NCBI GenBank assembly: GCA_945946665.1
Contig: CAMEWO010000013.1
Span: 1-57,319, forward strand
DNA from: an uncultured Eubacterium sp.
Lineage (GTDB): Bacteria > Bacillota > Clostridia > Lachnospirales > Lachnospiraceae
Direction: 5' to 3'
DNA length: 57,319 bases
The translations under genes were made by a program, and so were the position numbers. Position 1 is the stretch's first letter; the number at the start of each line of letters is the position of its first letter. The notes beneath the pieces are model-generated. The model did not search any database. It was not told the origin of the DNA and saw only the letters and a program-made list of their open reading frames with translations. Shown piece after piece: positions 15,047 through 50,653 of this stretch.

Positions 15047-15215
15047 ATATACACGAATTGCTCTGTTGCCGTTCAACTCCCGCAATTCTACACACATTCG
15101 TAATCCGTTGATTTATCAAGAAAAATCGCCACTTCCTCATGTGTGTGCGGGTCAACAAGTCAGAACTCTTATCCTGCAAGCAGCAACGAATTCTGACTTT
15201 TGATCCTTGTATCAT
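15047..15215 (+). repeat. 170-bp structured dispersed repeat, copy A
   Basis: Begins ATACACGAATTGCTCTGTTG and ends CCTTGTATCAT. About 85% identical by eye to copy B (18101-18271). It abuts the stop codon of the aconitase gene (15216) exactly and fills the gap to the coiled-coil gene. Internal hairpins match those of the other copies, with a G-U pair in the GGGTCAA/TTGATCC helix. Confidence 0.85.
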
Positions 15216-17501
15216 TTAATTATTCTTATAATAATTAATCAGGCATCCATCAAGAATAATCTGGCGCTCATCATCTGTAAGCTCATCCATTCTTAATTCA
15301 AACTCCTTCATATCCTTGTTAACTACATATGCCTTAAATGTATACTTCTTATCAATAACAGCCTGCTTAATTCCAGGAATAAATATATAATCCCCATTAG
15401 CAAATGGAAGCTCGCCCTTATCAATAAGGAATGGAAGCATACCCCAGTTAATCAGGTTTGAACGATATCTCTTGGTTGCGTACTCGTTGGCAATGTTAGC
15501 CCATCCACCCAGAACCTTCTGACATGATGCAGCCTGTTCACGGGCTGAACCATCACCTGGCTTTACAGCGAATATTGTACTTCCTACGCCAACATTTTCC
15601 TTATTAACATCATAAGTTTCCTTAATCTTATGCACGATATCCTTTAATTCAGGAAGAGCCTCGCCCATGCACTGACCTGCTTCTCTGGCTTTTTCTGCCT
15701 TCTGTACCTCTTTTGCTTTTCCTACATATGCAGGATCCTTTCTTGAAAGGGCAAATTCAGCAAGTCCCAGAGGATTAGAACGGTATGATGAAGTCTCTCC
15801 TGATGGAATAAGCTCATCAGTTGTTGTAACAGGATCATGAATCTCAGAAACAACCTTAATAATAAGATTCTCTGGAAGTTCAACCATCTCTGGCCAATCC
15901 TTGATATTAGGGCCAAACTGGATTTCCTGGTCAGGATCTGCCACACCCTTACTATCGAACACTCTGTTAGCATATATTGTCTTATCAAAATGATATGTTG
16001 GGCCTGTGAATTCCACATCCATATCTGTAGCTGCTGTAAGGAATCCCTTATTAGCTGCTGTTGCAGCAATAGAACGGGCATCCATAAGTGCAACTGAAGA
16101 AATCTGACCCTGCTGCAGCTTTGAACCTTCTCTGTTAGGGAAATTCCTTGTTGAATGTCTGATTGAAAATGCATTATTCGCAGGTGTATCACCGGCACCA
16201 AAGCAAGGACCACAGAATGCAGTCTTAACAATGGCACCTGTCTGCATAAGATCTGCCAGTCTGCCATTTCTTGCAAGTTCCATATATATAGGTGTACTTG
16301 CTGGATATACGCTTAATGTAAACTCGTCAGCTCCGATAGAACGTCCTTTTAATATATCAGCAGCTGCACAGATATTCTCAAATCCGCCACCTGCACATCC
16401 GGCAATAATACCCTGGTCAACATAGAGCTTTCCATCTCTTATCTTATTAGTAAGCTTATAATCTACAGCACCATCAAGACTTACAAGAGCCTTCTTCTCC
16501 ACATCGTGTAAGATATCCTCCAGGTTGGCATTAACCTCCTCGATTGTGTAAGTATTGCTTGGATGGAAAGGCATTGCGATCATTGGCTTAATCTTGCTTA
16601 AATCCACGTATACAACACCATCATAGTATGCAACCTTTTCAGGCTTTAACTCCTTATAGCACTCTGATCTGCCATGGATATCGTAGAATTCCTTAATTTT
16701 GTCATCTGTCTGCCATATTGATGAAAGACATGTTGTCTCTGTAGTCATAACATCGATTCCAATTCTGAAATCAGCGCTAAGATTCTTAATACCTGGTCCT
16801 ACGAACTCCATCACCTTGTTCTTAACATATCCGTTGCCGAATACAGCACCAATAATTGCAAGTGCCACATCCTGAGGACCAACGCCCTTTGCTGGCTCTC
16901 CGGTGAGATATATTGCAACAACCCCAGGCATATTAATATCATATGTCTTATTGAGGAGCTGCTTAACAAGCTCTGGTCCACCTTCGCCCATTGCCATTGT
17001 ACCAAGTGCACCATATCTTGTATGGCTGTCTGAACCAAGAATCATCTTGCCGCCTTCTGCCAGCATCTCTCTTGCAAACTGGTGAATAACTGCCTGATGA
17101 GGTGGTACATAGATTCCACCATACTTTTTAGCACATGTAAGACCAAACATGTGGTCATCTTCATTAATTGTTCCGCCTACTGCGCATAAGCTGTTATGGC
17201 AGTTTGTAAGCACATAGGGAATAGGAAACTTTTCCAGTCCTGAAGCTCTCGCTGTCTGGATAATTCCAACAAATGTAATATCATGGGATGTCATCTTATC
17301 AAACTTAATCTTAAGCTTGTCCATGCTGCCTGATGTGTTATGGCTCTGTAAAATTCCATAAGCAATTGTATTCTTTGCTGCCTCTTCCTTTGATGGTGCA
17401 AATCCAGTTTTTGCCTCAAGTTCTCCTGCCTGTGCAGAAGCCTCTTCAATAATCTCAGTACCATCAATAAGGTATGCTCCACCTTTACTTAATTCTATCA
17501 T
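15216..17501 (-). CDS. Aconitase-family hydratase (putative aconitate hydratase)
   Basis: A 761-aa [4Fe-4S] dehydratase of the aconitase superfamily, expected to isomerise citrate to isocitrate on the way to 2-oxoglutarate and glutamate. Iron-sulfur ligands are visible as GCAGGGFEN (the position of GSCTNS in classic aconitase) and [10 protein letters not shown] (CxxC). The C-terminal swivel domain has DGSAREQAA, equivalent to the usual GSSREHAA, and '[11 protein letters not shown]'. It belongs to the monomeric 'hydratase' branch (YbhJ-like) rather than AcnA/AcnB, so substrate is inferred. Start: AGGAGG six bases before ATG. It follows the HIT gene by 44 bases. Citrate synthase lies at 37712-39097; no isocitrate dehydrogenase is in the window. 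Confidence 0.85.
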
Positions 17502-17545
17502 CCTCTACCTCCTGAAAATTATGGTTACTACTTATGAGTTGTATT

Positions 17546-17965
17546 TTACTTAATTCTGGGACAAACCAGTGATTTAATCTTCTCTATTTCCTCATCTGTA
17601 ACTTCACCCGGTTTCCATCCTACATTAACAGTATCCCCTTTATATCTTGGGATAATATGCATATGGAAATGGAATACAGTCTGACCTGCAATTTCTCCAT
17701 TGTTCTGTACAATATTCAATCCTTCCAGATTCAACCCCTCTTTAAGTGCTTTTGCCACTTTAACTGCTACCTGAAATACATGGGCGGCAGTGTCATCATC
17801 CAAGGCATACACATTATCAAAGTGTTCCTTTGGCAAGATAAGAACATGTCCGGAAGATGCTGGACCCGCGTCAAATATTACCTTGACAACATCGTCTTCA
17901 TAAAGAGAATTGGTAGGAATAATTCCATTTGCAAGCTTGCAGAATATGCAATCATCTTTTTTCAT
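17546..17965 (-). CDS. HIT-family nucleotide hydrolase (HinT-like)
   Basis: A 139-aa histidine-triad protein. The active-site motif HFHMHIIPR (His-x-His-x-His) is near residue 100, and an N-terminal CIFC pair suits zinc binding as in many bacterial HIT proteins. Such enzymes hydrolyse AMP-amidates, for example lysyl-AMP. Length is typical. Start ATG follows GAGGGA. It precedes the aconitase gene on the same strand, so a two-gene transcript is possible. Confidence 0.9.
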   Translation of the reverse strand: MKKDDCIFCKLANGIIPTNSLYEDDVVKVIFDAGPASSGHVLILPKEHFDNVYALDDDTAAHVFQVAVKVAKALKEGLNLEGLNIVQNNGEIAGQTVFHFHMHIIPRYKGDTVNVGWKPGEVTDEEIEKIKSLVCPRIK

Positions 17966-18070
17966 AGTCCATCCCTCGCTTCACATAAATGTCGTATTTT
18001 GTAGTTATTTGTCTAAAACCTTGTGTTTACACATTCAAACTACAAGTATATAATTTTCTTAATATTGACA

Positions 18071-18098
18071 TGAGGGTCAAATAGTACTTTGTCCCTCA
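18071..18098. other. Hairpin in the HIT / histidine-kinase intergenic region
   Basis: TGAGGG(T)CAAA and TTTG(T)CCCTCA form a near-perfect 10-bp inverted repeat three bases from repeat copy B. It could be an operator or simply part of the larger structured region. The interval 17966-18330 holds only this hairpin, repeat copy B and A/T-rich DNA. Confidence 0.4.
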
Positions 18099-18100
18099 TT

Positions 18101-18271
18101 ATGATACACGAATTGCTCCGTTGCAATGCAACTCCCGCAATTCTACACACATTCGGAATCCGTTGATTTTTCAGGAAAAATCACTACTTCCTCATGTGTG
18201 TGCGGGTCAACAGGTCAGAATTCTTATCCTGCAAGCAGGAACGAATTCTAATCTTTTGACCCTTGTATCAT
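18101..18271 (+). repeat. 170-bp structured dispersed repeat, copy B
   Basis: The best-preserved copy, with short inverted termini ATGATACA...TTGTATCAT. Internal pairs: GAATTGC/GCAATTC, GTTGC/GCAAC, CACACAT/ATGTGTG, GATTTTTC/GAAAAATC, GGGTCAA/TTGACCC, AGAATTC/GAATTCT and CCTGC/GCAGG. An open frame across it has no counterpart in the other copies beyond shared DNA, so it is noncoding. Confidence 0.85.
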
Positions 18272-18330
18272 ATAATATCCTAAACAAAAGCCATTATCAA
18301 TAAAAAATGAAAGGAAATTAATAAAATAAA

Positions 18331-19053
18331 ATGTCAGAACGAAAGATTATAGAATATAAATACGATTTTGAGACACACTATAAAGATTTAAGTAAAATTT
18401 GCCATGAAATTATCAACAGTGTTGCCCTTATCAATTCTTCATACCAGTACATCGATGCCAGATATCCAGAATCCCATGAATTCAAGTTCTGGAACACTCT
18501 TGGCAATTCCGTCAGGAATCTGACCTGCCTTATGAAAAGGACAACTCTGTGCCGTTACAGTCACTTTCCTAACAAGGAAATAATATCCATAGGCCAGATA
18601 GTTGATAATGCACTGGCAAAATTGGAAGAATACTCCGACAGCAGTATTCTCAATGTAATATCTGTCAGCAGCAACATCGACAGCAATACGCCTGTGCTGT
18701 GTGATGCAGAACATACATCCCAGGCCATGACAGAATTAATAACCAATGCCTACGAAGCACAACTTGACACAGAACAACTGGACACAGATGCTCCATGGAT
18801 TAAAGTCAATATTAGCTCAAAGGATGATTTACTGGCTATAACTGTTACTAATCCAGGCTCAATCGACGTAAACCAGCTTTACCAGAACCTATCAAGTGCT
18901 TTATACACAACCAAGGATAATCATTCAGGGCTTGGATTATTCATCGTCAAATCAACCTGTAGCAGCCACGGTGGAAATCTCATCATAGAGAGTGATGACG
19001 ACACCACTTCCGCAACCATGACTCTGTCACTGAAAGCTGACCAGTCCGTTTAA
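18331..19053 (+). CDS. Soluble histidine-kinase-like ATPase without sensor domain
   Basis: A 240-aa cytoplasmic protein with only the two core parts of a sensor kinase: a dimerisation/phosphoacceptor helix with ICHEIINSV (His near residue 29) and a GHKL ATPase domain with an N box (ELITNAYEA), a G1-like segment (ITVTNPGS) and the G2 box (HSGLGLFIVKS). There is no membrane helix, PAS or HAMP domain and no response regulator nearby. SpoIIAB- or Spo0B-like roles are possible but not shown. The ribosome site is weak (AGGAAA about 15 bases from ATG). It converges on the flavodoxin gene with an 18-base gap. Confidence 0.75.
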   Translation: MSERKIIEYKYDFETHYKDLSKICHEIINSVALINSSYQYIDARYPESHEFKFWNTLGNSVRNLTCLMKRTTLCRYSHFPNKEIISIGQIVDNALAKLEEYSDSSILNVISVSSNIDSNTPVLCDAEHTSQAMTELITNAYEAQLDTEQLDTDAPWIKVNISSKDDLLAITVTNPGSIDVNQLYQNLSSALYTTKDNHSGLGLFIVKSTCSSHGGNLIIESDDDTTSATMTLSLKADQSV

Positions 19054-19071
19054 TCATATGCAACAAATGTA

Positions 19072-20064
19072 CTATTTCTGGAAGCCAAACAGCTCATCCA
19101 GCATGCGGAGACTTCTGAAATTCCCCTTTGCTGTCATATCCCCCGTCATAAATGCTCTGTGGAATGTAATCTTGCCAGATACGATATCTTCAAACACATC
19201 CTTGCTTAATCTGGCGATTACATCCGCAGCTTTATTATCTCCAAAGTCAACATCCAGCTTATCTCCATCCACATTCATGACAATATTCTTATCCTTGTCA
19301 CTAATCATAATCATATACGTGCCATTATAATTCTGTCCCTTTTTAAAATTATCTTTGAAAATATTGATATAATAGCTGTCGCCACCCTGTTCCTGCTCTG
19401 TAAGCATCTCTTTATAGATGGATGCCAGTGACTCAATATCCTGTTTCTGTGTCTTAACAAATGTATCATCTGAAGCATACTTTGAAAGCTGCTCACTTTC
19501 CTGAGGAGTGAACTTAATAACATCTTTCATCACGTTATTCTTAATTGTCATACTGCTTGATGGAAGGCATATTCTTTTCTGGGATATGGTTCTATACATA
19601 TCCTCAGTTTTTCTCTCAATCATCTCCATATACTTACTGTTAAATTCGAATTCAGTAGTATCATCCACATAGGCAGTTATACCATTGCCGACCTTACCGC
19701 CTATCATCTCCCATGAATTAATTAATGTGAGAGAAACATCCCTTTCACCATATGTCTTAGACATAACAACAGGGAACATATATACATTGTTAATCTTGCT
19801 TTTATCTGCATAAAGCCAGCAGGAATCAAGAAGCATCTGCATGTAACCGCCCATTCCAAGCCACTCTACTGTAGTAGCCAGAATAACACCATCCGCTTCT
19901 GTCACTGTCTGTGAAAGGGTAGTAATCTGTGTCCTTAATTCAAACAGATTATACCTTTCTACTGTTACATTAAGTTCGCCTAAAACTCCCTGAATTTTGT
20001 CAAGAACGAACATTGTAGGGTCATCTACGACCCCTCTTCCCCCATAATATATATTAATCTTCAT
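19072..20064 (-). CDS. Flavodoxin-fold NAD(P)H-dependent oxidoreductase fused to an SCP2-like domain
   Basis: A 330-aa two-domain protein. Residues 1-160 resemble NADPH-dependent FMN reductases (MKINIYYGGRG at the phosphate loop, 'ADGVILATTVEWLGMGGYMQ' and 'TYGERDVSL'). Residues about 225-330 look like a sterol-carrier-protein-2 fold ('NIVMNVDGDKLDVDFG', 'DIVSGKITFHRAFMTGDMTA'), which binds hydrophobic ligands. Redox of a lipid-like or quinone ligand is a reasonable guess but not established. Start ATG follows AAAGGA at nine bases. It lies just past the Tad locus, on the same strand. Confidence 0.8.
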   Translation of the reverse strand: MKINIYYGGRGVVDDPTMFVLDKIQGVLGELNVTVERYNLFELRTQITTLSQTVTEADGVILATTVEWLGMGGYMQMLLDSCWLYADKSKINNVYMFPVVMSKTYGERDVSLTLINSWEMIGGKVGNGITAYVDDTTEFEFNSKYMEMIERKTEDMYRTISQKRICLPSSSMTIKNNVMKDVIKFTPQESEQLSKYASDDTFVKTQKQDIESLASIYKEMLTEQEQGGDSYYINIFKDNFKKGQNYNGTYMIMISDKDKNIVMNVDGDKLDVDFGDNKAADVIARLSKDVFEDIVSGKITFHRAFMTGDMTAKGNFRSLRMLDELFGFQK

Positions 20065-20120
20065 CAGTCAGATTCCTTTCACTGCCACAAACTCTTATAT
20101 CTGAAAATATAGCATAAAAC

Positions 20121-21491
20121 CTAACTCATTTCAACCACATAGGAAACAGCAGCCAGTGTAATCTCATCATGATTGTTTAATTCTCTTCTGGAATTCATAA
20201 TGAGACGCTCCCCATTAACATAAGTACCATTGGTAGAATTCAGATCCTCCACATAGTATTCACCATTATCTCTGGTAATACATGCATGTATATGGCTTAC
20301 CAGTTTACTTTTCAGTACAGTATTGCAGTTCTTTTCCATACTTCCTATTATCCACGGGAACTGGGATACTTCTATGTCAGGAAATCCGTCATTTCCTTTA
20401 TACAACAGCTTCACTGTTTTGTCCTTCTTATTATTGAAATAATCGGACAAAAGCATTGTGTTTCCGTCATAGTTTTCATTGTCATCATCCCTATCTTTAT
20501 CATAACTATCATTGTTCGTTTTATAATAGTCATTGACATCTTTGTACCCAGAATTGATATAGGAATCATCATTCCTGCCATTATCGCAGCCTTCATACCG
20601 GTCTTTCTTATCATATATGAATGGTTCCATGACCTTCTTTGTTTCAACCCTTGTAAATAGAGATTTTGGAATTTTGCTGATTACAGCTATCAATGCAGCA
20701 CATGATATTATTATTATCAATGCACCTGTGTCTGACACCGGAACGGGAACATATGATGGAGCCAGCATCCTGCCAATTGCCGCCACCATCACAACACCAA
20801 GGCATACTCTGGCAATGTTAAACAGCAGAAACACCTTTTTGTTTTCCACTTCTTCCTGTTCTTCCACCTCTTCCATGGGAATAAAGTCCAATACATTTTC
20901 GTCATTCTCTGTATTGTCCTTACTAATATCACTGTCACAGCTTAAACTGTCCATCTCTGCTAATGCCTTTAAATTTGATGCATCATATTCTCCCCGGACA
21001 ATTTTCTGATAGAGATTGTATATGTATAATACGTCTGTATCTCCTGCTCCATGGTCAAAATGCTCTATAACATAATCAAACAGCCTTTTTAGTCCCTGCT
21101 GAAAGCTACTGTCCTCCTGCTCATTTCCATACGCAAAATACAGCTTATCCTTGGATACATCCACATATATGCAGTCTGTTTTAAGAATTATACAATTAAG
21201 ATTAAGCATATATTCATTGACAGCGTCTACCATTTCATTAAGACTGTAAAGAATATTATCAACATTCTTCCGGGACAGTTTTCTATATTCATATATCTTC
21301 GAAAACTGCTGCCTCGAAGTCACATCATAGTAATACAGGCTGCGGTTATCAATATGTCTTATTTTTACAGGAAGCAATGGCTCAATATGGTTATTTTCCA
21401 GCATTTTAATATCAATCTCCATATCAGTTTCCATTGTTTCTTTTTCAATTACCATATACATGCTATTATTTTCCTGCTGATATTTTATCAA
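20121..21491 (-). CDS. DUF6382/FHA-domain membrane protein of the Tad locus
   Basis: A 456-aa protein, last gene of the pilus run. The N-terminal ~200 residues match the DUF6382 type found before FHA domains in clostridial Tad loci. Two membrane helices follow (about 225-270), then an Asp/Asn/Tyr-rich linker and a C-terminal FHA domain (IIGS, SHIHACI, NSTNGTYVNGERL). The FHA part would bind phosphothreonine proteins, perhaps linking pilus activity to the kinase at 394-2208 (inference). Start is uncertain: TTG 21491 has AGAGGTG at six bases; ATG 21461 also has an upstream AGGA. Confidence 0.8.
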   Translation of the reverse strand: MIKYQQENNSMYMVIEKETMETDMEIDIKMLENNHIEPLLPVKIRHIDNRSLYYYDVTSRQQFSKIYEYRKLSRKNVDNILYSLNEMVDAVNEYMLNLNCIILKTDCIYVDVSKDKLYFAYGNEQEDSSFQQGLKRLFDYVIEHFDHGAGDTDVLYIYNLYQKIVRGEYDASNLKALAEMDSLSCDSDISKDNTENDENVLDFIPMEEVEEQEEVENKKVFLLFNIARVCLGVVMVAAIGRMLAPSYVPVPVSDTGALIIIISCAALIAVISKIPKSLFTRVETKKVMEPFIYDKKDRYEGCDNGRNDDSYINSGYKDVNDYYKTNNDSYDKDRDDDNENYDGNTMLLSDYFNNKKDKTVKLLYKGNDGFPDIEVSQFPWIIGSMEKNCNTVLKSKLVSHIHACITRDNGEYYVEDLNSTNGTYVNGERLIMNSRRELNNHDEITLAAVSYVVEMS

Positions 21492-21523
21492 TTATTACAC
21501 CTCTTTTCCCTGTGACCTGATTA

Positions 21524-21865
21524 TTATGGAATCAGTTTCAGTGCGGCCCTTGTTTTTCTGATAAACTCTCTTGGGCTGTTGTTAACCACTTTATTCTCAT
21601 CCATACTCTTTTTTATTTCTTCATCATTCACACTTTTTCTCATAGATTTAAGACCGGCATAGGAAGATACATCTGAAACGCACATATTCCTGTTGCTTCC
21701 TTCAAGCTTTTCCTGTTCGATTTTCATATTCCCCTGAAAAGACACAGCTTTACCAATAAGCTCATCATGCATATCGAGAGCCAGAATCACCATAACAACT
21801 ATTATCATTGTAAAGAATGGGATAATAAATGAATTCTCCACTGTAAAGGATGCTCTCAACCGCAT
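21524..21865 (-). CDS. TadE-like minor pilin / pseudopilin
   Basis: A 113-aa protein with a short basic N-terminus, then 'ASFTVENSFIIPFFTMIIVVMVILALDM', the hydrophobic helix with internal Glu typical of TadE/TadF pseudopilins, and a hydrophilic tail. It would be cleaved and inserted with the Flp pilus. Its start overlaps the stop of the preceding prepilin-peptidase gene by 10 bases (translational coupling), with GGGGGTG upstream. Confidence 0.75.
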   Translation of the reverse strand: MRLRASFTVENSFIIPFFTMIIVVMVILALDMHDELIGKAVSFQGNMKIEQEKLEGSNRNMCVSDVSSYAGLKSMRKSVNDEEIKKSMDENKVVNNSPREFIRKTRAALKLIP

Positions 21866-22311
21866 AACATCACCCCCAGTGTGCTTATTCCAAGAAATGG
21901 AATGAATGGAAGTGAGGCTTTACCAGCAATTTTCTTCCTGATTACACATATTATTCCTGATAAGGATACCCCCGTTAATGCCACCATAGTTGAAACCAAC
22001 GCAAACTCCAGTCCCTTTACAACACCAATAAACAGCATTACAGCAACATCTCCCATGCCAATATTTCCTGTTTTTACTGAATAGATGCCTGTTCCTAAAA
22101 TAATAAGGATACCGGCAATTATGCTGTATATCTCCATTTCCCTGTATAGCAAAATATATAATACCCTGTATATTATTCCTGCCGGGACAACAATCATAAT
22201 CCCTATAACCCCTATTGACCTTAACCTTATGTCTTCCACGGAAAACCATATAAGAACCAGCATAACCACGCTGTTTACAATCCATGGATTCTTCAATATC
22301 TCTGCACTCAA
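21856..22311 (-). CDS. A24-type prepilin peptidase (TadV/CpaA-like), second copy
   Basis: A 151-aa polytopic membrane protein with the two aspartates of type IV prepilin peptidases: one in 'WFSVEDIRLRSI' and one in 'GNIGMGDVAVM'. It would process Flp or TadE-type prepilins. The start is TTG, overlapping the upstream TadE stop as TTGA, with GGAGG nine bases before. A different A24 peptidase opens the locus (29865-30443), so the two may have separate substrates. Confidence 0.8.
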   Translation of the reverse strand: MSAEILKNPWIVNSVVMLVLIWFSVEDIRLRSIGVIGIMIVVPAGIIYRVLYILLYREMEIYSIIAGILIILGTGIYSVKTGNIGMGDVAVMLFIGVVKGLEFALVSTMVALTGVSLSGIICVIRKKIAGKASLPFIPFLGISTLGVMLCG

Positions 22312-23201
22312 TTATGATTTCCTCCACACTTCTGACATGCACTCATGCCGGACACTTCTTTAATATCAACTTCTTTTACCGTTCTCTTAAGCCCCGGACA
22401 ATCCCTGTCACTGTGATATCTGTCGCCATAATCTGTAATGTAAACCCCATCACCAGCTCCTGTCTCTGCCTGTCCACAACAACTTTCACAGGGATAATAC
22501 TTTCCGCCAGATTCATTCCTTCTCTCATTAAGTGACTCAAATGAAACAAGGGAAATACTAAGGTCAAGAAGGCTGCATTCTGGGGTTGTATGATACACTG
22601 TACCCCATGGGGTAATATATACCTTTTCTCCTTCTTCACCATCTTCAGAGTCCATGTTTCTATCTGGCTCAGCATCATTTTCATATCCAGAATTGATTCC
22701 ACCAGAAGCCTTTCCGTCCCATTCTCCGCTTTTTTCTTCTCCAAGCCACGCTTCTGCAATTACTCCCTGCCTTACAGTAATTATTCCAAGCCCGAATATG
22801 TCAAATGGATTCTTCACCGTATACTCTGCATTAATCTGTATCTTGCTGTCACCATCACATACCTTTGACGATGTAAGAATAAATCCAGGAGTGCCTCCAA
22901 CAACATAATAATCCCTGCCGGTATCTGCACCTATATTAGACATAAAACTGGTGTACAATTGTCCATTCATAATTCCAAGATTATCCTGTTTATTATAAAG
23001 ATATGCATATTTACACATTTCTCTTGCAGTGTTGTAAGCAGCCCTGTCCACATCCACGTACACATTAAGAAGTCTGATTACAAACATCACAGCAAGAACA
23101 GCGTATACATATAGCGGAATTACCAGTGTTGCCTCCAGAGTGGCAGATGCCTTCAATATTCTATGCCGCATAGCTGTATGTCTGTTTTCGTACAATAACA
23201 T
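22308..23201 (-). CDS. TadE-like pilus protein with two C-terminal zinc-binding-like repeats
   Basis: A 297-aa protein. The N-terminal helix ('ASATLEATLVIPLYVYAVLA') is TadE-like. The C-terminal 104 residues carry two copies of a Cys/His motif: 'VYITPWGTVYHTTPEC'...'PCESC' (194-241) and 'VYITDYGDRYHSDRDC'...'ACQKC' (253-292), i.e. YHxxxxC then CxxC. This resembles the Ada-type metal-binding fold seen at the ends of some secreted nucleases. If exported, these modules would sit outside the membrane on the pilus. The GGGGAGG site supports the first ATG; it overlaps the end of the DUF5702 gene by 41 bases. Confidence 0.75.
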   Translation of the reverse strand: MLLYENRHTAMRHRILKASATLEATLVIPLYVYAVLAVMFVIRLLNVYVDVDRAAYNTAREMCKYAYLYNKQDNLGIMNGQLYTSFMSNIGADTGRDYYVVGGTPGFILTSSKVCDGDSKIQINAEYTVKNPFDIFGLGIITVRQGVIAEAWLGEEKSGEWDGKASGGINSGYENDAEPDRNMDSEDGEEGEKVYITPWGTVYHTTPECSLLDLSISLVSFESLNERRNESGGKYYPCESCCGQAETGAGDGVYITDYGDRYHSDRDCPGLKRTVKEVDIKEVSGMSACQKCGGNHN

Positions 23202-25347: not shown

Positions 25348-25351
25348 ATTT

Positions 25352-25555
25352 TTATATCTGCTTTGCAGTGCTTGTCATCTTTGACAAAAGGGTATTAACC
25401 AGCGCAGTAATCTTCGACTTGAAGAGAATTACCAGACTAACCAGCACAATAATAATCAGAACAACCTCCACAACTCCCATTCCACTCTCATCTCCAAGCC
25501 CTTTAACAAGCCCTGCAAAATACTTTCTTACTTTTACAAAATTAATTCCTGCCAT
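25352..25555 (-). CDS. Flp1-family type IVb pilin
   Basis: A 67-aa prepilin, the main fibre subunit. After a hydrophilic leader, 'GDESGMGVVEVVLIIIVLV' carries the glycine, the Glu at +5-like position and the hydrophobic helix used for cleavage and assembly. GGAGG lies seven bases before ATG, the strongest ribosome site of the locus, as expected for the major subunit. Confidence 0.85.
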   Translation of the reverse strand: MAGINFVKVRKYFAGLVKGLGDESGMGVVEVVLIIIVLVSLVILFKSKITALVNTLLSKMTSTAKQI

Positions 25556-25651
25556 ATTTTTTCCTCCTGTTTTTCATCATTTTTTGACACATTTCTTTAC
25601 ACAACATCACTCCACGCAACATCACTCTGAACATCATCACTTCACACAACA

Positions 25652-29860: not shown

Positions 29861-29864
29861 ACGC

Positions 29865-37693: not shown

Positions 37694-37711
37694 AATAACC
37701 TCTTTTTTCTA

Positions 37712-39168: not shown

Positions 39169-39197
39169 ATTATGCAATATTTGTAGTCATTTGTCAA
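39169..39197 (-). promoter_or_regulatory. Promoter of citrate synthase (and possibly aroA)
   Basis: Minus strand: perfect TTGACA (39197-39192), 17-base spacer, CATAAT (39174-39169), about 70 bases before the ATG at 39097. Confidence 0.75.
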
Positions 39198-39224
39198 ATA
39201 ATAATACAAGGTAAATCCCCCATT

Positions 39225-39800: not shown

Positions 39801-39888
39801 AGCATTAGTCCTTTTTTATAATATGATGTGAGTGTCATAAGCCTTTTCCCACTCATGTCACGAAAGCGGCTTAAGAATGGAGGTTATT

Positions 39889-40653: not shown

Positions 40654-40661
40654 TAATCAAG

Positions 40662-40698
40662 GTGCTGCCAGAAACCTGCTGGCAGCACTTTTTATTTT
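40662..40698. terminator. Terminator between the SDR and whiA genes
   Basis: GTGCTGCCAG / CTGGCAGCAC, a perfect 10-bp stem with a seven-base loop, followed by TTTTTATTTT on the plus strand. It also lies four bases past the stop of convergent whiA. Confidence 0.9.
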
Positions 40699-40702
40699 CA
40701 CA

Positions 40703-41629: not shown

Positions 41630-41644
41630 TTCTCCAACTCCTTA

Positions 41645-42547: not shown

Positions 42548-42564
42548 ATTCCCTTATCTCCTTT

Positions 42565-43473
42565 CTACAAGCCTATTCTTTTAACCTCTAATTCAAGGGT
42601 GACACCAAACTGTTCCATTATCCTTTTCTTAATATAATCCGTAAGCTCAACCACGTCCTTTGCAGTGGCACCTCCCATATTAACAACAAATCCGGCGTGT
42701 TTTTCTGAAACAGCTGCTCCTCCAATGCTGTATCCCTTTAGACCTGCATCAGCTATCAGCTTTCCTGCAAAATATCCTTCCGGCCGCTTAAATGTACTTC
42801 CCGCACTTGGATACTCTAATGGCTGCTTCTGCTTCCTTAATTCTGATAACTGGTTCATCCGGGCTTTAATCTGCTCCTTGTCACCAGATTTAAGTTCAAT
42901 AACAACCTGCAGCACAATCATGTTATTCTTTGCAACAGCACTTGTTCTGTAACCCATGTCAAGCTCATCCCTGCCAAGAATCCTTATATTGCCAGCCTCA
43001 TCAAGAACTGTCACAGAAGTGACTACATCCTTCATCTGTCCATCATAGGCACCGGCATTCATATATACTGCTCCACCAACGCTTCCCGGAATTCCACTGG
43101 CAAACTCCAGCCCGGTAAGCCCCTCACGCAAGGCTATTACTGCCAGTTTAATGAGGCTCATTCCAGCCTGGGCAGTTATTACATTATCCTTAATCTCATA
43201 ATCTGAAAATGTATTAAATAAAGCAAGAACTACACCATCAACGCCATCATCACCAACAAGAATATTGCTTCCGTTGCCTATTACGTGTAGTGGAATATTC
43301 ATATTTCTGCATAAAGAAACAACTTCCTGAATCTGATTAACAGACTCAGGAGTTACGTAGTACTGTGCAGGGCCTCCTATCTTAAACGTAGTGTGGTTCT
43401 TCATAGGTTCATTAATTCTAACATTATCTTTGCCAGTAATATTAATTAACCGGGTAACTATCTCGTCACTCAT
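42565..43473 (-). CDS. murB: UDP-N-acetylenolpyruvoylglucosamine reductase
   Basis: A 302-aa FAD enzyme making UDP-MurNAc for peptidoglycan. 'NHTTFKIGGPAQYYV', 'VIGNGSNILVGDDGVDGVV', 'EFASGIPGSVGGAVYMNAGAYDG', 'YPSAGSTFKRPEG' and 'HAGFVVNMGGATA' are characteristic. It is type IIb-like in length. ATG 43473 stands within the 30-bp leader motif; an in-frame ATG lies four codons upstream. Confidence 0.95.
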   Translation of the reverse strand: MSDEIVTRLINITGKDNVRINEPMKNHTTFKIGGPAQYYVTPESVNQIQEVVSLCRNMNIPLHVIGNGSNILVGDDGVDGVVLALFNTFSDYEIKDNVITAQAGMSLIKLAVIALREGLTGLEFASGIPGSVGGAVYMNAGAYDGQMKDVVTSVTVLDEAGNIRILGRDELDMGYRTSAVAKNNMIVLQVVIELKSGDKEQIKARMNQLSELRKQKQPLEYPSAGSTFKRPEGYFAGKLIADAGLKGYSIGGAAVSEKHAGFVVNMGGATAKDVVELTDYIKKRIMEQFGVTLELEVKRIGL

Positions 43474-43500
43474 ACCAATCCCCATTCCGCAGACGCTTTG
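43471..43500 (-). repeat. Recurrent 30-bp leader motif, copy 2 (murB)
   Basis: Minus strand CAAAGCGTCTGCGGAATGGG then GATTGGTATG, ending in the murB start codon. It differs from copy 1 (13370-13398) at only three positions over the shared 28. Confidence 0.75.
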
Positions 43501-43530
43501 ATAATCCTCTTTTCTGACAAAAGCCTCATG

Positions 43531-44445
43531 CTAATCAGCCTTATATATTAATCTTGCAGCTCCATACATTCCTGCATCATTGCCAAGAATCGCCTTCACA
43601 ATCTTATTATCCCTTGATGGATGGAAAGCGTATTCCCGGTAATATTTTCTTATTTTCTCAAGCAAATACTCTCCGGCAGCTGACACACCGCCACCTATAA
43701 TAAAACACTCTGGATCAGCAATACCTGCTGCGATGGCAAGCGCCTTTCCCAGATACATGGAAACCTTCTCAACAACAGCTTCCATATCCTTATCCCCAGC
43801 CATGGCTGCATCAAATACCTCTTTGGCATTCTTCTTTCCGCCCATTCTGGCAATTCCCGTAGCAGAAGCCACCTGTTCCAGACATCCTGTTTTTCCACAG
43901 GTACATGGAAAATCCAGATCATCCACAAATGGAATATGTCCAATCTCTGCTGCAGCGCCATTATATCCATTCACAGGCTTGCCGTTAATTATTAAACCAC
44001 CGCCTACACCTGTTCCAATTGTAATCATCATTATGCTGGAATAGCCTTTTCCTCCGCCCTTCCAGTACTCTCCAAGGGCAGCTACATTAGCATCATTACC
44101 CACAGATATATTCTCTATAGGAATATCTATATGCTTAGCCAGTGCTTCAGGCACATTGAATACTCCCCAACCCAGGTTAACACATTTGTTAACAGTTCCA
44201 TCATCTCTTACAGAACCAGGAACACCGATTCCTACCCCGATAACATCACTAAGAGAAAGCCCCTGCTCATCCACAATCTTTCTGATATAATCTGCCACAT
44301 CAGCTAAGATAAGCTGTCCGCCATTCTCCTTTCTTGTAGGAATCTCATCCTTTCCTGCCATATTGCCCTTATCATCAAAATATCCACACTTAATAGTGGT
44401 TCCGCCTATGTCTATTCCAAATATAATCTTATTCATCATCTTCAT
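43531..44445 (-). CDS. glcK: ROK-family glucokinase
   Basis: A 304-aa sugar kinase: phosphate-1 motif 'GIDIGGTTIKCG', 'GIGVPGSV', 'NDANVAALGEYWKGGGKG' and the ROK zinc site 'CTCGKTGCLEQVAS'. It phosphorylates glucose with ATP. Its start overlaps the end of hprK by 17 bases, coupling sugar phosphorylation with catabolite control. Confidence 0.95.
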   Translation of the reverse strand: MKMMNKIIFGIDIGGTTIKCGYFDDKGNMAGKDEIPTRKENGGQLILADVADYIRKIVDEQGLSLSDVIGVGIGVPGSVRDDGTVNKCVNLGWGVFNVPEALAKHIDIPIENISVGNDANVAALGEYWKGGGKGYSSIMMITIGTGVGGGLIINGKPVNGYNGAAAEIGHIPFVDDLDFPCTCGKTGCLEQVASATGIARMGGKKNAKEVFDAAMAGDKDMEAVVEKVSMYLGKALAIAAGIADPECFIIGGGVSAAGEYLLEKIRKYYREYAFHPSRDNKIVKAILGNDAGMYGAARLIYKAD

Positions 44446-45382
44446 CGTCGCCTTTCATAAGGTTTTCCTGTACTCTTCTATACAACTCCTTAGCTGCATT
44501 GTAACCCATCTTCTTCTGTCTGTGGTTAACTGCCGCCGCCTCAACTATAACCGCCAGGTTACGTCCCGGACGGATTGGAAGTGTGTGACATACAACCTTG
44601 TTGCCAAGGTACTCGATATATTCCTCTTCCAGTCCAAGTCTGTCATACTCTTTGTCCTTGTTCCAGTCCTCCAGCTTCATAACCATATCAATCTGCTGTG
44701 TTTCCTTGATGCTCTCTACACCGAACAGTGTCTTTACATCAATAATACCGATTCCACGAAGCTCGATAAAATACTTGGTAACACCTGGCGCTGTTCCGAT
44801 AAGAGTCTCATCACTTACCTTACGTATCTCTACAGCATCATCTGTTACAAGACGATGACCTCTCTTAATAAGTTCCAGGGCAGCCTCGCTTTTACCGATA
44901 CCACTCTCCCCGACTATAAGAACTCCTTCTCCATATACATCAACCAGTACGCCATGGATTACGATGCATGGGGCAAGCTGGACATTAAGCCATCTTATTA
45001 CTTCTGCCACAAATGCAGATGTAGTACCTTTAGACTTGAGAATTGGAATTCCATACTTGCTGGCAATTTTAAGAATCTCCGGCTCCGGCGATAAATCCCT
45101 GCAGAATACCAGACATGGAATATTGCTTGAAAGAAGCTGTGAATACCGGCTGACCCTGTCCTCCTCCGAAAGACTCTGAAGGTAAGAATATTCCACATTA
45201 CCGATTACCTGAATTCTGTCATTGTCAAACTGGTCATAGAATCCTGTAAGCTGCAAAGCTGGGCGGTTTACATCCGGAACATGAAGCCATATCCCGCTTG
45301 TATCCACATCTGGGGTAAGATTTTCCAACCCCATCTTATCAACAACCTTTGATAATTTAACCTTCTCTGTACTATTATTCAT
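44429..45382 (-). CDS. hprK: HPr kinase/phosphorylase
   Basis: A 317-aa enzyme that phosphorylates and dephosphorylates HPr at Ser46, the main switch of carbon catabolite repression in Firmicutes. P-loop GESGIGKSEAAL and the signature 'ELRGIGIIDVKTLFG' are present. ATG 45382 with GAGGG five bases upstream gives the usual length; a frame to 45487 overlaps uvrC and has no site. Confidence 0.95.
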   Translation of the reverse strand: MNNSTEKVKLSKVVDKMGLENLTPDVDTSGIWLHVPDVNRPALQLTGFYDQFDNDRIQVIGNVEYSYLQSLSEEDRVSRYSQLLSSNIPCLVFCRDLSPEPEILKIASKYGIPILKSKGTTSAFVAEVIRWLNVQLAPCIVIHGVLVDVYGEGVLIVGESGIGKSEAALELIKRGHRLVTDDAVEIRKVSDETLIGTAPGVTKYFIELRGIGIIDVKTLFGVESIKETQQIDMVMKLEDWNKDKEYDRLGLEEEYIEYLGNKVVCHTLPIRPGRNLAVIVEAAAVNHRQKKMGYNAAKELYRRVQENLMKGDDEDDE

Positions 45383-45483
45383 AGAAACCCTCATTTCCTG
45401 TGCATTCACGCTGACTGCACATACCTTAATGCCTAAAAAGTTTTCCTGTACGCTAGATACATGTATTGTACCATATATTTTAA

Positions 45484-47304
45484 TCAATGAAAATAATTAT
45501 ATATATTTTCTGCCACTCCTCTGTTAATACCCGGTGCTTCCATAAGTTCCTCAACAGATGCATGTCTGATTTTTTCAATTTCCATAAAATGCTTCATCAA
45601 CGCTTTCCGTCTTGCCGGTCCCACACCATCAATACCATCCAGCACAGAACTTACCTGGGCTTTACTTCTTAAACTTCTGTGATATTCAATGGCAAACCTG
45701 TGAGCCTCATCCTGAATCCTTGTAATCAGTTTGAATCCCTCACTTCGTTTATCAATAGGAATCTCAACATTGTTGTAATACAACCCTCTTGTATTATGAT
45801 TATCATCTTTTACCATGCCACACACAGGAATAGAAAGACCCAGTTCCCCAAGAACCTCCAGGGCAATATTCACCTGTCCCTTTCCACCATCCATCATGAT
45901 AAGGTCAGGATATATGTCAAATCCTGCTGAACTTTCCAGTGCCCTTTTGAAACGTCTTGTAAGCACCTCTTTCATGCTCTTGTAATCATCAGGACCTTTT
46001 ACAGTTTTTATCTTAAACTTCCTGTAATCATTTCTGGCAGGCTTCCCATCCTGAAATACAACCATTGAACCAACAGATTCCACACCGCTGGTGTTGGAGA
46101 TATCGTAAGCCTCCACTCTCCTTACCCCAGACAGGTTTATCCAGCCAGCAATCTCCTCCATGGCACCTACAGTACGCTGCTGTTCTCTCTTAATCTTCTC
46201 TCCATCCTGTATAAGCACCATCTGTGCATTTCTATATGCCAGTTCAACCAGCTTTTCCTTATCACCCTTCTTAGGAGTTATAATGTTTACCTTTCTCTTC
46301 TTAATTCCAGACAGCCACTGGCTTATAACCTCGCTGTCCTCAATTTCCTCCTGTAGCATGACAACGTTAGGTATATAAGGCGTTCCGCCATAATACTGTT
46401 TTATAAACTGGGACAGAATCTCCCCTCTTGTATCCCCCTCTGCCACACTCATATGAAAATGGTCTCTTCCCAGCAGTTTTCCGCTTCTTACGAAGAACAC
46501 CTGAACCACCGCATCCTGACCATCTGAAGCCACTGCAATCACATCTCTGTCTGTCACATCATCCATGGTTATTTTCTGCTTCTGGGCAACCTGCTTCACA
46601 CTGGCAATTAAATCCCTGTATTTTGCAGCCTCTTCAAACTCCATATTTTCTGAAGCCTGCTGCATCTGCTGTGTCAGGGAATTAAGTATGTGAGAATAAT
46701 CACCATCGAGAAATTCCATAACTGACTCAATAGACTTTCTGTAATCCTCCTCATTAATATATCCCTGGCATGGCGCACTGCACTGTCCGATATGGTAATT
46801 AAGGCATGGTCTTTCCTTTCCCTGGTCAGCAGGAAGCTTTCTGTTGCAGGTTCTTATTTTATATAACTTACACAACAGTTCAATTGTATCCTTCACTGCT
46901 CCTGCGGAGGTATATGGCCCATAATACTTGCCTGTTCCGTGAACAATCTTTCTTGAGAATAATACCCTTGGAAAATGTTCCCCTGTTGTAATCTTAATAA
47001 ATGGATATGTCTTATCATCCTTAAGCATCGTATTATACTTAGGGCTGTGCTCCTTTATAAGATTACACTCAAGAACCAGGGCTTCCAGTTCTGAATCAGT
47101 AATAATATATTCAAAATAATCTATTTTAGAAACCATACGCTTGATTTTAGCAGAATGGTTGGTACTTGCCCTGAAATACTGTCTCACCCTGTTTTTAAGG
47201 CTTACAGCTTTGCCAACATATATTATGGTGCCGATTTTATCATGCATTATATATACTCCCGGTTTATCCGGCAGCTTCTTTAACTCTTCTTCAAGATCAA
47301 ACAT
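45484..47304 (-). CDS. uvrC: Excinuclease ABC subunit C
   Basis: A 606-aa nucleotide-excision-repair nuclease that makes both cuts around a lesion with UvrA/UvrB. Domains: GIY-YIG ('PGVYIMHD' ... 'TIIYVGKA', residues 13-92), a Cys cluster ('CNRK', '[13 protein letters not shown]'), UVR motif (about 205-240), RNase H-like domain ('[10 protein letters not shown]', '[11 protein letters not shown]') and tandem HhH at the end. GGGAG lies six bases before ATG. First gene of the hprK-whiA run. Confidence 0.95.
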
Positions 47305-47330
47305 ACTTATCTCCCACAGGTAAATCCTAA

Positions 47331-47384
47331 AAACCCCGCCACACTCCTTAAATCATGTATTTAATGGAATATAGCGGGTTTTCA
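47331..47384 (-). terminator. Terminator after the 590-aa sorted protein
   Basis: AAAACCCGC / GCGGGGTTTTT arms with additional pairing (TCC-ATTAAAT / ATTTAA-GGA) inside; ends in a T run on the minus strand. Confidence 0.75.
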
Positions 47385-47399
47385 TATGTATTAACTGTT

Positions 47400-49172
47400 T
47401 TAATAATTATCGTTTATATTTTTCTTTCTTCTGGCAAGAACTACAATACCAACTCCAAGAAGCAGGGTGGCTGCTGGAATAAGAATCCACATAACATCCT
47501 TAACTCCTGTGTTAGGTGTATTATCAAGACCTCCTCCCGGTGCCTTGGTAGTTGCCTGGGTATATGATGTTGTTGAATTATTATTATTGTTATTGCCATT
47601 ACCGTTTGAAGTTGTTGGCTGCTGTGCTGATGTTGTTGGCTGTGTAGTTGGTGTCTCCCCTGCATTAGCATAATACAGCGCATACGGAGAGAAATGTGGT
47701 GGTGTGAATTCAAGATACTTCTTTCCATCTACAGTCTTAACTTCAACGCCCTCAACTTCTTCTATAGTATTAGCATCCTTTATTGTAATAACCTTAACAC
47801 TGCTTGCATAGGACTCCCATTCAGAAGGAACTGGAACCTTGACTTTAAGATTCTCAATCTTACTTGACTGTTCTACACCATCTATTTTTGCAGATATATC
47901 GAAAACTCTCAAATGTACTGCATCAAGCTTGTATTTGCTGTCATTAACGCTCACGAACTTATTATAAGCTTCTGTGGCTGCTGCGCTGGTAGGAGTTGCT
48001 AGAGTCGCACTGCCGTTATTTATATTCCACTGGAAAACACCCTGGAAAAAATCTGTTGTAATTGAAATCTCCGTTTGTGGGTTTTCGTTATAATCGTAGT
48101 AAAGAGCGTAAACACCATACTTATCTGTCGTAAATGAAATATAATTCACCCCATCATCTTCAGATATAGCTGTTTCACCTACTTCGATAATAGAAGCCGT
48201 GCCATTCTCGCTAACCGAATATGACAGCACTTTAACTTTGTCCGTTTGTCCCCAACTACTACCAATAGGAATTCTTATTTTAACTGAATCAACAGGACTA
48301 TTAGTATCAGATTTTTCTATATCAAATAATTTTAATCTGCTAACATCGTAATTATTCATAAAATTCCTAAGTACCGAATCAGACGGATAATTTCTCCCGT
48401 CCATATCAGCCAGCATCTCTCCTGCCCCATCATATGTCGCATATGCCTTATCATTGCTACCCAGAAGATTAGTAGAAGAAATTACAACATTATATGCATT
48501 GATTACAATATTTTCGTTCTTTTGAACGTTTCTCGTGTCTTCCTCCGAAGCGGGAATATCAGTAGTCTTAAACAAAGTAAAATATTCCGATAATCCACTG
48601 TAACAGTTTACCTGTTCAATATTAACTATAAGATTGTTTCCATCTTCTGTTGCACTAACAAATGCTGTCGCGTCCAATCCAGATTGAGTATTTCTAAAAC
48701 CATATATTGAAAGATTTTTAATTATTGAATTCGCAAAAGCATATTTACCAATTTTAGCAACATCTGATTTAATAACAATATTGTTGAATGTTTTCTTACT
48801 TTCTCTACTCGAATTAAACGCACAGCCCCCAATGTTTTTAACTCCATCTTCAACCACAATATTACATACAGAAGAATAACCTGGTGCGCTGTTCCAAGGG
48901 GCCTCAATACCTGCATAGTCATTCATTACACCACGGTCAGCTTCATCTGCTTCGGCATTGACAGTAATCGAAAGTGTACTAGTACTTGTATCTATTCCCC
49001 AGTGGATTCCTCCATCATTTCCACTATTTCCAACCTCATCAGCCATAACTACACTTGATTCTGAAAAATCTAATGCAAAAGCCATAGAAAATGCAACGCA
49101 TGCCGCCAGCATCACCTTTAATATGCCTTTTTTTATTCTATTTCTTCTTTCATTTACCCCATTCTTCTTCAT
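47400..49172 (-). CDS. Sortase-anchored surface protein, likely substrate of the adjacent sortase
   Basis: A 590-aa exported protein with a signal peptide (about residues 20-45), a region with an interrupted leucine-rich-like pattern ('NIVVEDGVKNIGGCAFN', 'KIGKYAFANSIIKNLSI'), then two modules with 'SFTTDKYGVYALYY' and 'EFTPPHFSPYALYY' endings, related in pattern to the modules of the 870- and 712-aa proteins. A Thr/Gln/Asn linker leads to TPNTG, a hydrophobic helix and ARRKK. TPNTG replaces LPxTG. ATG 49172, with GGAG seven bases upstream, is the start. It directly follows the sortase gene. Confidence 0.85.
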   Translation of the reverse strand: MKKNGVNERRNRIKKGILKVMLAACVAFSMAFALDFSESSVVMADEVGNSGNDGGIHWGIDTSTSTLSITVNAEADEADRGVMNDYAGIEAPWNSAPGYSSVCNIVVEDGVKNIGGCAFNSSRESKKTFNNIVIKSDVAKIGKYAFANSIIKNLSIYGFRNTQSGLDATAFVSATEDGNNLIVNIEQVNCYSGLSEYFTLFKTTDIPASEEDTRNVQKNENIVINAYNVVISSTNLLGSNDKAYATYDGAGEMLADMDGRNYPSDSVLRNFMNNYDVSRLKLFDIEKSDTNSPVDSVKIRIPIGSSWGQTDKVKVLSYSVSENGTASIIEVGETAISEDDGVNYISFTTDKYGVYALYYDYNENPQTEISITTDFFQGVFQWNINNGSATLATPTSAAATEAYNKFVSVNDSKYKLDAVHLRVFDISAKIDGVEQSSKIENLKVKVPVPSEWESYASSVKVITIKDANTIEEVEGVEVKTVDGKKYLEFTPPHFSPYALYYANAGETPTTQPTTSAQQPTTSNGNGNNNNNNSTTSYTQATTKAPGGGLDNTPNTGVKDVMWILIPAATLLLGVGIVVLARRKKNINDNY

Positions 49173-49232
49173 CACTAGTCTCCATTTCCAGTTCAAACAG
49201 GAGCGTTACACAGACTTTCCTTCAAGAATCTG

Positions 49233-50390
49233 CTAATCCTGTCTTACTGCAACTATATACAGTCTCCCATTCTCCGAAACCTTGCTGCATGTGGACAATG
49301 TTATAAATCTGTCATCATTCTTAAACTCATAATCTACCGGATATAACGACTGATTTCTTATGTCCATAAAGAAACTGTCTAATTCATACTCATCATCCGT
49401 ATAATTATAATATCTAAATCCCTCTTCGTCAATATATTTGACCTCTCCAAGACAGGCGGCAATAACCCTGTAAGTGTAGTGGTCGTACAGTGTATCGAAC
49501 TTTATCTCCCTGTGGTTTTTATAAAAATTTTCATCCATATACTGTGTGAGACAGCTGAACATTTCCCCATCGCTGGTATTGTGTCCATATATAATCATAT
49601 TGATGTCGTTATAGCTGTTTCTGTAATCCATGAATATACTTCCGTTAGGATTATACTCATTATAGAATCCCTTTTTAAGATAATAATCATTATCTCCTCC
49701 CTTAAGAACAGGGTAATCTACCACAGTTCCTGGGATATTAACCCATCCTGCCAGCTGTGAGTTAATCCGGAACATTTCTGCCAGTTCAGGAAGAATTGTA
49801 TCTGACTGGGATGAATATCTGTGATTATCACCAACATTTCCTGAACCATCATCACTTATTCCCAGTCCATTATTGCCACCATCGCCATCCTGTCTGTCAG
49901 AACCATCTCCATCAGATTCCTGTCCTTCTTCTGATGCAGAACTTTCCTGGGTAGCATTGTGCATCTGCTGGAGATTATTCATATTCTCCCTGCTTAATGC
50001 AGCATTTTTCCTGCTCTGATAGTTGTACACAAATATGCCCACTGACGCTATAATCAGAATACATCCAAGAATAGTAAGAAATATTTTCTGCATATTAAGC
50101 TTCTTGTTAGCCTTAAGATTGCGTTCAGACTCTTCCTCTCTGTTTCTTGCAGCTGTGTCAGCCAGATACTTTAGGAAATATTCCCTGACCTTTTCCGTCT
50201 TAAATGTAATCTTGTACTCCTTAACCAGAAGATAAAGCCTGTTGGCATCCTTGGAACTTTTTATGTCGCAGCCTTCTATTATGGATTTGACTTTGACAAG
50301 GTCCTCCTCCACAGCTTTGTCTCTTGCTTCACGTTCGGTTTCATCTATATCATTTTCAAAATCATAATCAAGATATTTCTTCCAACTCAT
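49233..50390 (-). CDS. Class B sortase
   Basis: A 385-aa transpeptidase that joins surface proteins to the wall. The cytoplasmic N-terminus (about 95 residues) is unusually long; one membrane helix ('IFLTILGCILIIASVGIFVY') and a Gly/Ser/Asp-rich linker follow. The catalytic domain has 'MIIYGHNTSDGEMF' (His), 'FITLSTCSKVS' (Cys) and the final 'GRLYIVAVR' (Arg). 'GSIFMDYRN' is typical of class B. ATG 50390 lies in the recurrent leader motif. Its substrate gene is 60 bases downstream. Confidence 0.9.
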   Translation of the reverse strand: MSWKKYLDYDFENDIDETEREARDKAVEEDLVKVKSIIEGCDIKSSKDANRLYLLVKEYKITFKTEKVREYFLKYLADTAARNREEESERNLKANKKLNMQKIFLTILGCILIIASVGIFVYNYQSRKNAALSRENMNNLQQMHNATQESSASEEGQESDGDGSDRQDGDGGNNGLGISDDGSGNVGDNHRYSSQSDTILPELAEMFRINSQLAGWVNIPGTVVDYPVLKGGDNDYYLKKGFYNEYNPNGSIFMDYRNSYNDINMIIYGHNTSDGEMFSCLTQYMDENFYKNHREIKFDTLYDHYTYRVIAACLGEVKYIDEEGFRYYNYTDDEYELDSFFMDIRNQSLYPVDYEFKNDDRFITLSTCSKVSENGRLYIVAVRQD

Positions 50391-50417
50391 ACTAATCCCC
50401 ATTTTACAGACGCTTTT
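50388..50417 (-). repeat. Recurrent 30-bp leader motif, copy 3 (sortase)
   Basis: Minus strand AAAAGCGTCTGTAAAATGGG then GATTAGTATG, ending in the sortase start codon. It keeps AAAGCGTCTG, AATGRGGATT and the final TATG of the other two copies. Confidence 0.7.
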
Positions 50418-50480
50418 ACGCCGAATTAGATTCGCAAAACATAGTATACACTATTTTGTCAATCTGTTGTATAATATTTT

Positions 50481-50653
50481 GAGATACAAGGGTCGAAAGT
50501 TCAATATGCCGTTCATGCTTGCATGAAAAGGCATTTGAATTTGAGACCCGCACACACATGAGCAAGTAGTGATTTTCTCTTGAGAAAATCCACGGATTGC
50601 GAATGTGGGTAGAATTGCGGGAGTTGCTCCGCAACGGAGCAATTCGTATATCA
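50481..50653 (-). repeat. 170-bp structured dispersed repeat, copy C (inverted)
   Basis: Opposite orientation to copies A and B, ending 22 bases before the trkA ATG. Diverged in the 3' third, yet its helices are kept by compensating changes: TGCC/GGCA instead of AGAATTC/GAATTCT, CATGC/GCATG instead of CCTGC/GCAGG, GATTTTCTC/GAGAAAATC instead of GATTTTTC/GAAAAATC. It would form part of the trkA 5' leader. Confidence 0.85.

Follow-up and report, generated by a model that had tools for sequence, protein, structure and literature searches.

Clostridiales-1 RNA (RF01699) is filed in Rfam under the type 'Gene; sRNA' (small RNA). A search of the literature by family name and id recovered a single description of it, a table row in Weinberg et al. 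2010 (PMC2864571) that scores it as probably RNA, probably not cis-regulatory and probably not a riboswitch; no dedicated study was found by title or abstract. Among described mobile repeats, bcr1-bcr3 of the Bacillus cereus group are presented, in the relevant text of PMC3446304, as repeats that resemble miniature inverted-repeat transposable elements (MITEs) and often lie within untranslated regions (UTRs). Here we analysed a 57,319-nucleotide stretch from an uncultured Eubacterium sp. of the Lachnospiraceae (contig CAMEWO010000013.1, hereafter the window), which holds three copies of Clostridiales-1 RNA, labelled A, B and C. Because of its terminal inverted repeats, its 5-bp target duplications and an empty site in a sister genome, RF01699 is at least partly a MITE-like mobile element. 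It is highly probable that short non-autonomous mobile elements in Lachnospiraceae and their relatives form a family whose body is this RNA.

All three copies covered positions 1-166 of the RF01699 covariance model and scored above its curated cut-off of 48 bits in cmscan. Copy A was located at 15045..15214 (minus strand, strands being those of the RNA; 96.6 bits), copy B at 18102..18270 (minus strand; 128.2 bits) and copy C, in the trkA leader and in sense orientation, at 50482..50653 (plus strand; 122.8 bits). No other Rfam family was found in the window at gathering score. A preliminary description of this DNA had placed the copies correctly to within 2 bases and offered an undescribed class of noncoding RNA as one explanation; since all three match RF01699 over the cut-off, such a class is ruled out, the family having been published in 2010 (PMC2864571). 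Pairwise identity was 89% between A and B, 83% between B and C and 79% between A and C. The whole-helix replacements noted earlier in copy C are present in the alignment, with ATGCC/GGCAT in place of the AGAATTC/GAATTCT of copies A and B, CATGC/GCATG replacing CCTGC/GCAGG, and GATTTTCTC/GAGAAAATC standing for GATTTTTC/GAAAAATC. So is the G-U pair of copy A, which lies in its AGAATTC/GAATTCT helix. The claim of conserved pairing held only in part: CACACAT/ATGTGTG has one A.G mismatch in copy C, and copy A has two mismatches, an A.C at the base of its first hairpin and, in the stem that follows, a G.G. With these two mismatches and the lowest score of the three, copy A looks partly decayed.

Many copies of the family run on past the Rfam model, in RNA sense, into a second hairpin ending in ..CCTTTTGACCC....ATCA. 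The reverse complement of this end, TGATNNNNGGGTCAAAAGG, is similar to how the RNA begins, so that imperfect inverted repeats of ~19 bp bound the unit. The 5′ repeat doubles as the 5′ strand of the first RNA hairpin; the 3′ repeat falls outside the Rfam model. Units of this terminal inverted repeat (TIR) type start with TGATAC.AGGGTCAAAAGG. At copy B, a pattern search placed the 5′ repeat at 18252..18270 (minus strand, 1 mismatch). The sequence and the empty site described below delimit its 3′ module at 18067..18101 (minus strand), a hairpin closing with the 3′ terminal repeat (18067-18085, TGACATGAGGGTCAAATAG read on the plus strand), and the same module was found behind other copies. Together with this module, the mobile unit of copy B spans ~18067-18270. 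The 5′ repeat of copy A was placed by the pattern search at 15196-15214, with 2 mismatches. Units are short, mostly 184-212 bp between their outer ends (up to 250 in genome G018), and lack coding capacity. The terminal repeat occurred at 22 places in the window's own genome (up to 3 mismatches), at 112 places in 11 relatives picked for having copies (up to 1 mismatch) and in exact form in 39 of 150 genomes of the family; written backwards, the pattern was found 0 times in each search. Genome G082, of the same family, has 121 exact matches in 3.7 Mb, an expansion that looks recent. At L119, L107 and L098, derivatives of 46-71 bp consist of the hairpin only; their terminal repeats are the same and the RNA core is missing.

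The empty site was found in a close sister genome, G011. A 6.5-kb query over copies A and B matched there in two pieces lying side by side with an overlap of 5 bp (13000-18061 and 18268-19500), and window positions 18062-18267 are missing, so that copy B is absent together with its extra hairpin. The preliminary description had proposed looking for empty sites in relatives, and for copy B the proposal proved sound. G011 carries a near-identical copy A at the same place, and the 3′ part of copy C also precedes trkA there, the G011 contig ending within copy C. Of the two pieces flanking the copy B site, one has a printed identity to G011 of 100% and the other of 92%; a recombination event may have had its boundary here. 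An Rfam scan of up to 10 kb around aconitase, the gene upstream of copy A, found RF01699 absent in 10 of 10 named relatives (L126-L134, L139), which are ten of 80 aconitase loci.

Target duplications were examined in a set of 120 copies, consisting of the 18 copies of the own genome and a selection among the matches listed for relatives; the set is dominated by G000 (the own genome), G018, G023 and G024, and its orthologous copies are not independent. Complete 15-bp flanks were available for 40 of the 43 copies with a recognised 3′ end. In 18 of these 40 TIR-type copies the same 5 bp stood on both sides, compared to 1.4 on average, and never more than 7, in 10,000 shufflings of the partners. 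In G082, examined later, 50 fetched stretches yielded 23 copies with both ends, of which 15 had identical 5-mers on both sides (1.0 on average and at most 6 in shuffles), 3 others matched at 6 bp and 5 had no duplication. The target is an AT-rich palindrome, aTNNNAt, of which the 5 bp TNNNA are duplicated. On its left side, A was found at -6 in 32 of the 40 copies, T at -5 in 27 and A at -1 in 35, and on its right side T at +1 in 34, A at +5 in 31 and T at +6 in 30. Two neighbouring copies in G082 (C8:56613 and C8:56803) have a common duplication, TAATA. These duplications, the terminal inverted repeats and the empty site bear out the earlier suggestion of a MITE-like mobile unit.

The own genome (2.45 Mb, 48 contigs) yielded 18 covariance-model matches, 8 of them above the cut-off, well beyond what chance would give; blastn found 35 pieces there, of which many were truncated. 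Including 60 relatives, 30 of 61 genomes had a match and 22 a match above the cut-off, with 0-35 per genome, and none of the 14 control genomes had a match to the model. A search for further copies in the genome and its relatives, recommended in the preliminary description, was therefore productive. By the aconitase gene, the closest named relatives are Lachnospira and other Lachnospiraceae. It is very unlikely that RF01699 is a conventional trans-acting sRNA gene that has merely been duplicated by recombination. Its Rfam type would say so, and an orthologous locus in G001, G003 and G008 (see below) shows the compensating changes of a kept RNA gene. However, terminal repeats with 5-bp duplications, the empty site and the varied neighbours argue against this explanation, as do the 17-35 dispersed matches in several genomes. 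In addition, copies of the terminator type start right behind a T-run, which would leave no obvious room for a promoter.

Plasmid carriage was dropped as an explanation after no match was found in 72,556 plasmid records. Five of 50,697 phage records matched, all of them unannotated faecal contigs (MT839604, MT837057, MT835871, MT838256 and MT837213). An IMG/VR contig classed as viral (L311) has a TIR-type copy with a TTATA duplication; the copies on contigs classed as viral, this one and the five phage records, may be host contamination. Tandem arrays at L055-L060 and L061-L065 (G024, G057, G052 and G023) are 5′-truncated copies in a row, in which the unit starts at varying points within the element and ends some 20-30 bases beyond its 3′ end. 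Two copies in the own genome (L075 at C1:341864 and L084 at C2:75315) have shrunk to ~36 bp, apparently by the same internal deletion between short AATTCGT repeats.

The fold was assessed in an alignment of 42 copies and 35 pairs, using five measures and 500 shuffles. Two-sided changes were found in 28 of the 35 pairs, and not one of the 500 shuffles reached any of the five measures. Paired cells amounted to 93.4% vs 75.9% when shuffled, the covariation score was 0.469 vs 0.161, and shifting the partner by 1-3 columns destroyed the covariation signal. There were 67 G-U cells vs 21 A-C cells. Since a DNA hairpin should give G-U and A-C equally, this excess speaks for RNA, although the argument is limited by the use of RNA energies in predicting the structure. 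At the orthologous site in G001, G003 and G008, where the flanking DNA is 81-98% identical, the 58 predicted pairs included three two-sided changes and three one-sided changes that keep the pair. These results point to selection acting on the RNA level of the fold, in agreement with the selection on a folded RNA proposed earlier. The preliminary description had also stated that its reading would fall without further copies or without covariation; both were found. It had posed a mobile unit and an RNA class as alternatives, and each is backed by the evidence, but they are not exclusive and the evidence supports both at once.

A repeat acting at the DNA level, with hairpins that serve transposition only and no RNA function, as in IS200/IS605-type elements or repetitive extragenic palindromes, would account for the hairpin-only derivatives with the same ends. 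We regard it as improbable, as the G-U excess is strand-specific and transposition does not require the compensatory changes seen at an orthologous, fixed site. Moreover, terminal inverted repeats with a 5-bp duplication are not known to belong to the IS200/IS605 pattern.

The genes next to the copies were called with a simple open reading frame (ORF) finder rather than taken from an annotation. The downstream gene was on the RNA strand in 84 of the 106 copies with neighbours on both sides. Between co-directional genes, the fair test, 60 copies were in sense and 14 in antisense (p 6e-8), and for TIR-type copies the ratio was 21:5 (p 0.0025). Orientation as a property of insertion was not repeated in G082, where the ratio was 6:7 (Fisher p 0.06 for the contrast with 21:5), and the sense bias therefore looks like retention, not directed insertion. 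A cis-acting mRNA leader, riboswitch-like or stabilising the RNA, that was spread by mobility and kept mainly in sense would fit the 60:14 and 21:5 ratios and the position of copy C, 21 bases before trkA. This explanation is possible but unlikely: the 6:7 ratio among the many recent-looking copies of G082 indicates that insertion itself is not oriented, the distance to the next start ranges from overlap to more than 1,000 bases, and the family's table row in PMC2864571 reads 'probably not' for cis-regulation.

Copies were also found at stop codons. Among non-TIR copies, 16 of 44, including window copy A, started between -5 and +1 of a same-strand upstream stop (4.8 expected under uniform placement), and among TIR copies 4 of 24 did (0.8 expected). 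Placement through gene truncation was ruled out, since the upstream proteins end normally: in 8 of the 10 scanned, the match stopped no more than 4 positions short of the end of the family model (YchF 368/368, ArgS 569/569, YicC 291/291, HisD 393/393, PheS 322/324, RNase HII 250/251, GalK 384/388 and Pfk 319/323). The exceptions were a glutamine synthetase-like protein whose matches fall short of the end (L276) and a protein with no family match (L067). Five TIR copies of this set begin on a stop codon (L029, L036, L067, L257 and L304). In all five TAA or TAG follows the second target copy, which places the original stop immediately after the target. Today the stop is supplied by the element itself (TGA, or TAA in L257), and the protein is unchanged. 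L417 in G082 also begins on a stop codon, without an exact duplication. We read the stop-codon placement as target preference together with survival of harmless insertions.

A further group of copies, seen in several Lachnospira genomes, has other closing stems and starts immediately after the T-run of an intrinsic terminator. Under a widened rule, 16 of the 120 copies are placed in this way. T-box leaders precede L044 (Rfam 95.5 bits) and L046 (115.5 bits), and T-box and RF01699 were the only families at these two loci at gathering score. Occupancy of the T-box leader site of tyrS differs between sister species. G019 has the RNA and a second repeat, G017 only the RNA, 3′ truncated, and G002 only the second repeat, the RNA (query 1502-1656) being missing with 5 other bases at the junction; a remnant was found in G012 and neither repeat in G009. 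The second repeat is a divergent relative of RF01699, one copy of which overlaps a sub-cut-off match (G002:C1:484941, 45 bits). All 20 fetched places of these repeats, a subset of those listed in G002, G012 and G019 with G017 left out, were behind a terminator, vs 0 of 580 positions taken from the same loci as controls; both counts use the rule as widened after a narrower one gave 16 of 20. The second repeat is ~130 bp long (TTTGCGCGAGYAGCGATGAGAA...), distantly Clostridiales-1-like, and was seen behind terminators at L362-L379 (G002 and G012), L044 and L314. Its first ~18 bases are often repeated at its 3′ end, and at some loci both stretches carry the same local variants. The terminator and stop-codon subfamilies share the RNA, not the TIR ends, and may be older or moved by something else.

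For the TIR subfamily, which includes copy B, we suggest that the mobile unit begins with TGATAC.AGGGTCAAAAGG, takes in the folded RNA and closes with the hairpin ending in CCTTTTGACCC....ATCA. An enzyme from another element, probably a DDE-type transposase, would recognise the ends of the unit in trans and insert it into the aTNNNAt palindrome, duplicating TNNNA. The first three bases of the element, usually TGA, would let a copy land on a stop codon with the protein unchanged. Copies in leaders and between genes would be transcribed along with their neighbours, and because of this the fold would be kept by selection at the RNA level. Its upkeep may serve the host, the element (for instance through harmless insertions) or both. 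Copies A and C would be older copies that lack the 3′ end.

Several observations weigh against this proposal. Neither a 3′ terminal repeat nor a target duplication was seen at copies A and C, and copy B has no exact duplication, the candidate being imperfect and shifted (ATATTA beside ATATTATA). The 3′-end pattern was found in 43 of the 120 copies and not in the other 77, and it misfiled at least one copy (L061). No inverted pair of TIRs 1-2.5 kb apart was present among the places listed for the own genome and the 11 relatives. Three candidates for an autonomous transposon were rejected: a 1,475-bp inverted pair in G082 that holds the rsmH gene and an inner third repeat, and thus represents two copies; a 5.3-kb pair in G086, two separate copies around ordinary genes; and C2:11073 with C2:16497 in G082, a hairpin-only copy and a truncated copy. 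No transposase with shared ends was found among the listed TIR places of the 12 genomes or in the G082 and G086 pairs. The ends of the other subfamilies differ from the TIR type, and one transposase therefore cannot explain all copies. As to the fold, the ratio of G-U to A-C was 41:18 without the two apical pairs and 15:7 in 16 divergent copies (15 to 8 by column), and 2 of the 58 pairs at the orthologous site were broken in one species. A crude SigA score before TIR copies was 3.44, vs 1.85 after shuffling and 1.03 for the opposite side, and 6 of the 42 copies scored as strong; this is a weak rise, too weak to claim a fixed promoter at the element start, and that candidate was dropped.

In the window, copy A lies between the stop of the aconitase gene (15216..17501, minus strand; PF00330) and the next gene on the same strand. 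The aconitase stop occupies 15216-15218 and copy A starts, in RNA sense, at 15214, one base behind the stop and not abutting it exactly as had been thought. The gene downstream of copy A (13934-15097) had no Pfam match, although several Lachnospira have similar frames behind aconitase. The start given for this gene falls inside copy A and is probably incorrect; a ribosome site and a start lie near 15020. Downstream of copy B in RNA sense is a HIT-domain gene (17546..17965, minus strand; PF01230). Copy C ends 21 bases before the start of the trkA-type gene (50675..52060, plus strand; PF02254/PF02080), on the sense strand.

RF01699 is at least in large part a mobile element, so that automated annotations listing dozens of 'sRNAs' in some genomes mislead. 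MITE ends, a selected RNA fold and, most of all, base-exact placement after a terminator or at a stop codon together make a natural system for studying how mobile elements reach harmless sites, and for asking whether the RNA of an element takes part in this. A speculative extension, to which we give little credence, is that the conserved RNA core itself belongs to the machinery of mobility, with one fold, interchangeable ends and three target rules (aTNNNAt, the T-run of a terminator and an upstream stop codon), and that the RNA may help to select or tolerate sites. This would be a new kind of RNA-assisted mobile element, neither an sRNA gene nor a plain MITE.

Group IIC introns insert behind intrinsic terminators, and the terminator subfamily resembles them in starting right behind a terminator stem and T-run. 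The elements here differ in being ~130-160 bp long, too short for an ORF, with no intron core matched and no reverse transcriptase; the families that Rfam gave at gathering score were RF01699 alone for the window and no others than T-box and RF01699 for L044 and L046, and membership of this group was rejected. IStrons, as portrayed in the pertinent part of PMC4227781, are similar in that a structured RNA rides on a DNA transposon. Unlike in IStrons, no group I intron was matched and no ORF is present here, and the copies are mostly at gene ends. With Clostridiales-1 RNA as first reported the identity is direct, all three window copies matching the same covariance model at full length and far above the cut-off. 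Its table row in PMC2864571 makes no mention of mobility. The RNA is thus already known; that it is a mobile element placed with base precision is not in print as far as the titles, abstracts and table row recovered by our searches go. Like bcr1-bcr3, the copies are MITE-like, intergenic and numerous, and occur in UTRs and between operon genes. However, the relevant text of PMC3446304 credits bcr10 and bcr18, not bcr1-3, with conserved RNA structure. The likeness is one of description, and in the elements reported here the covarying RNA and the MITE ends form one unit.

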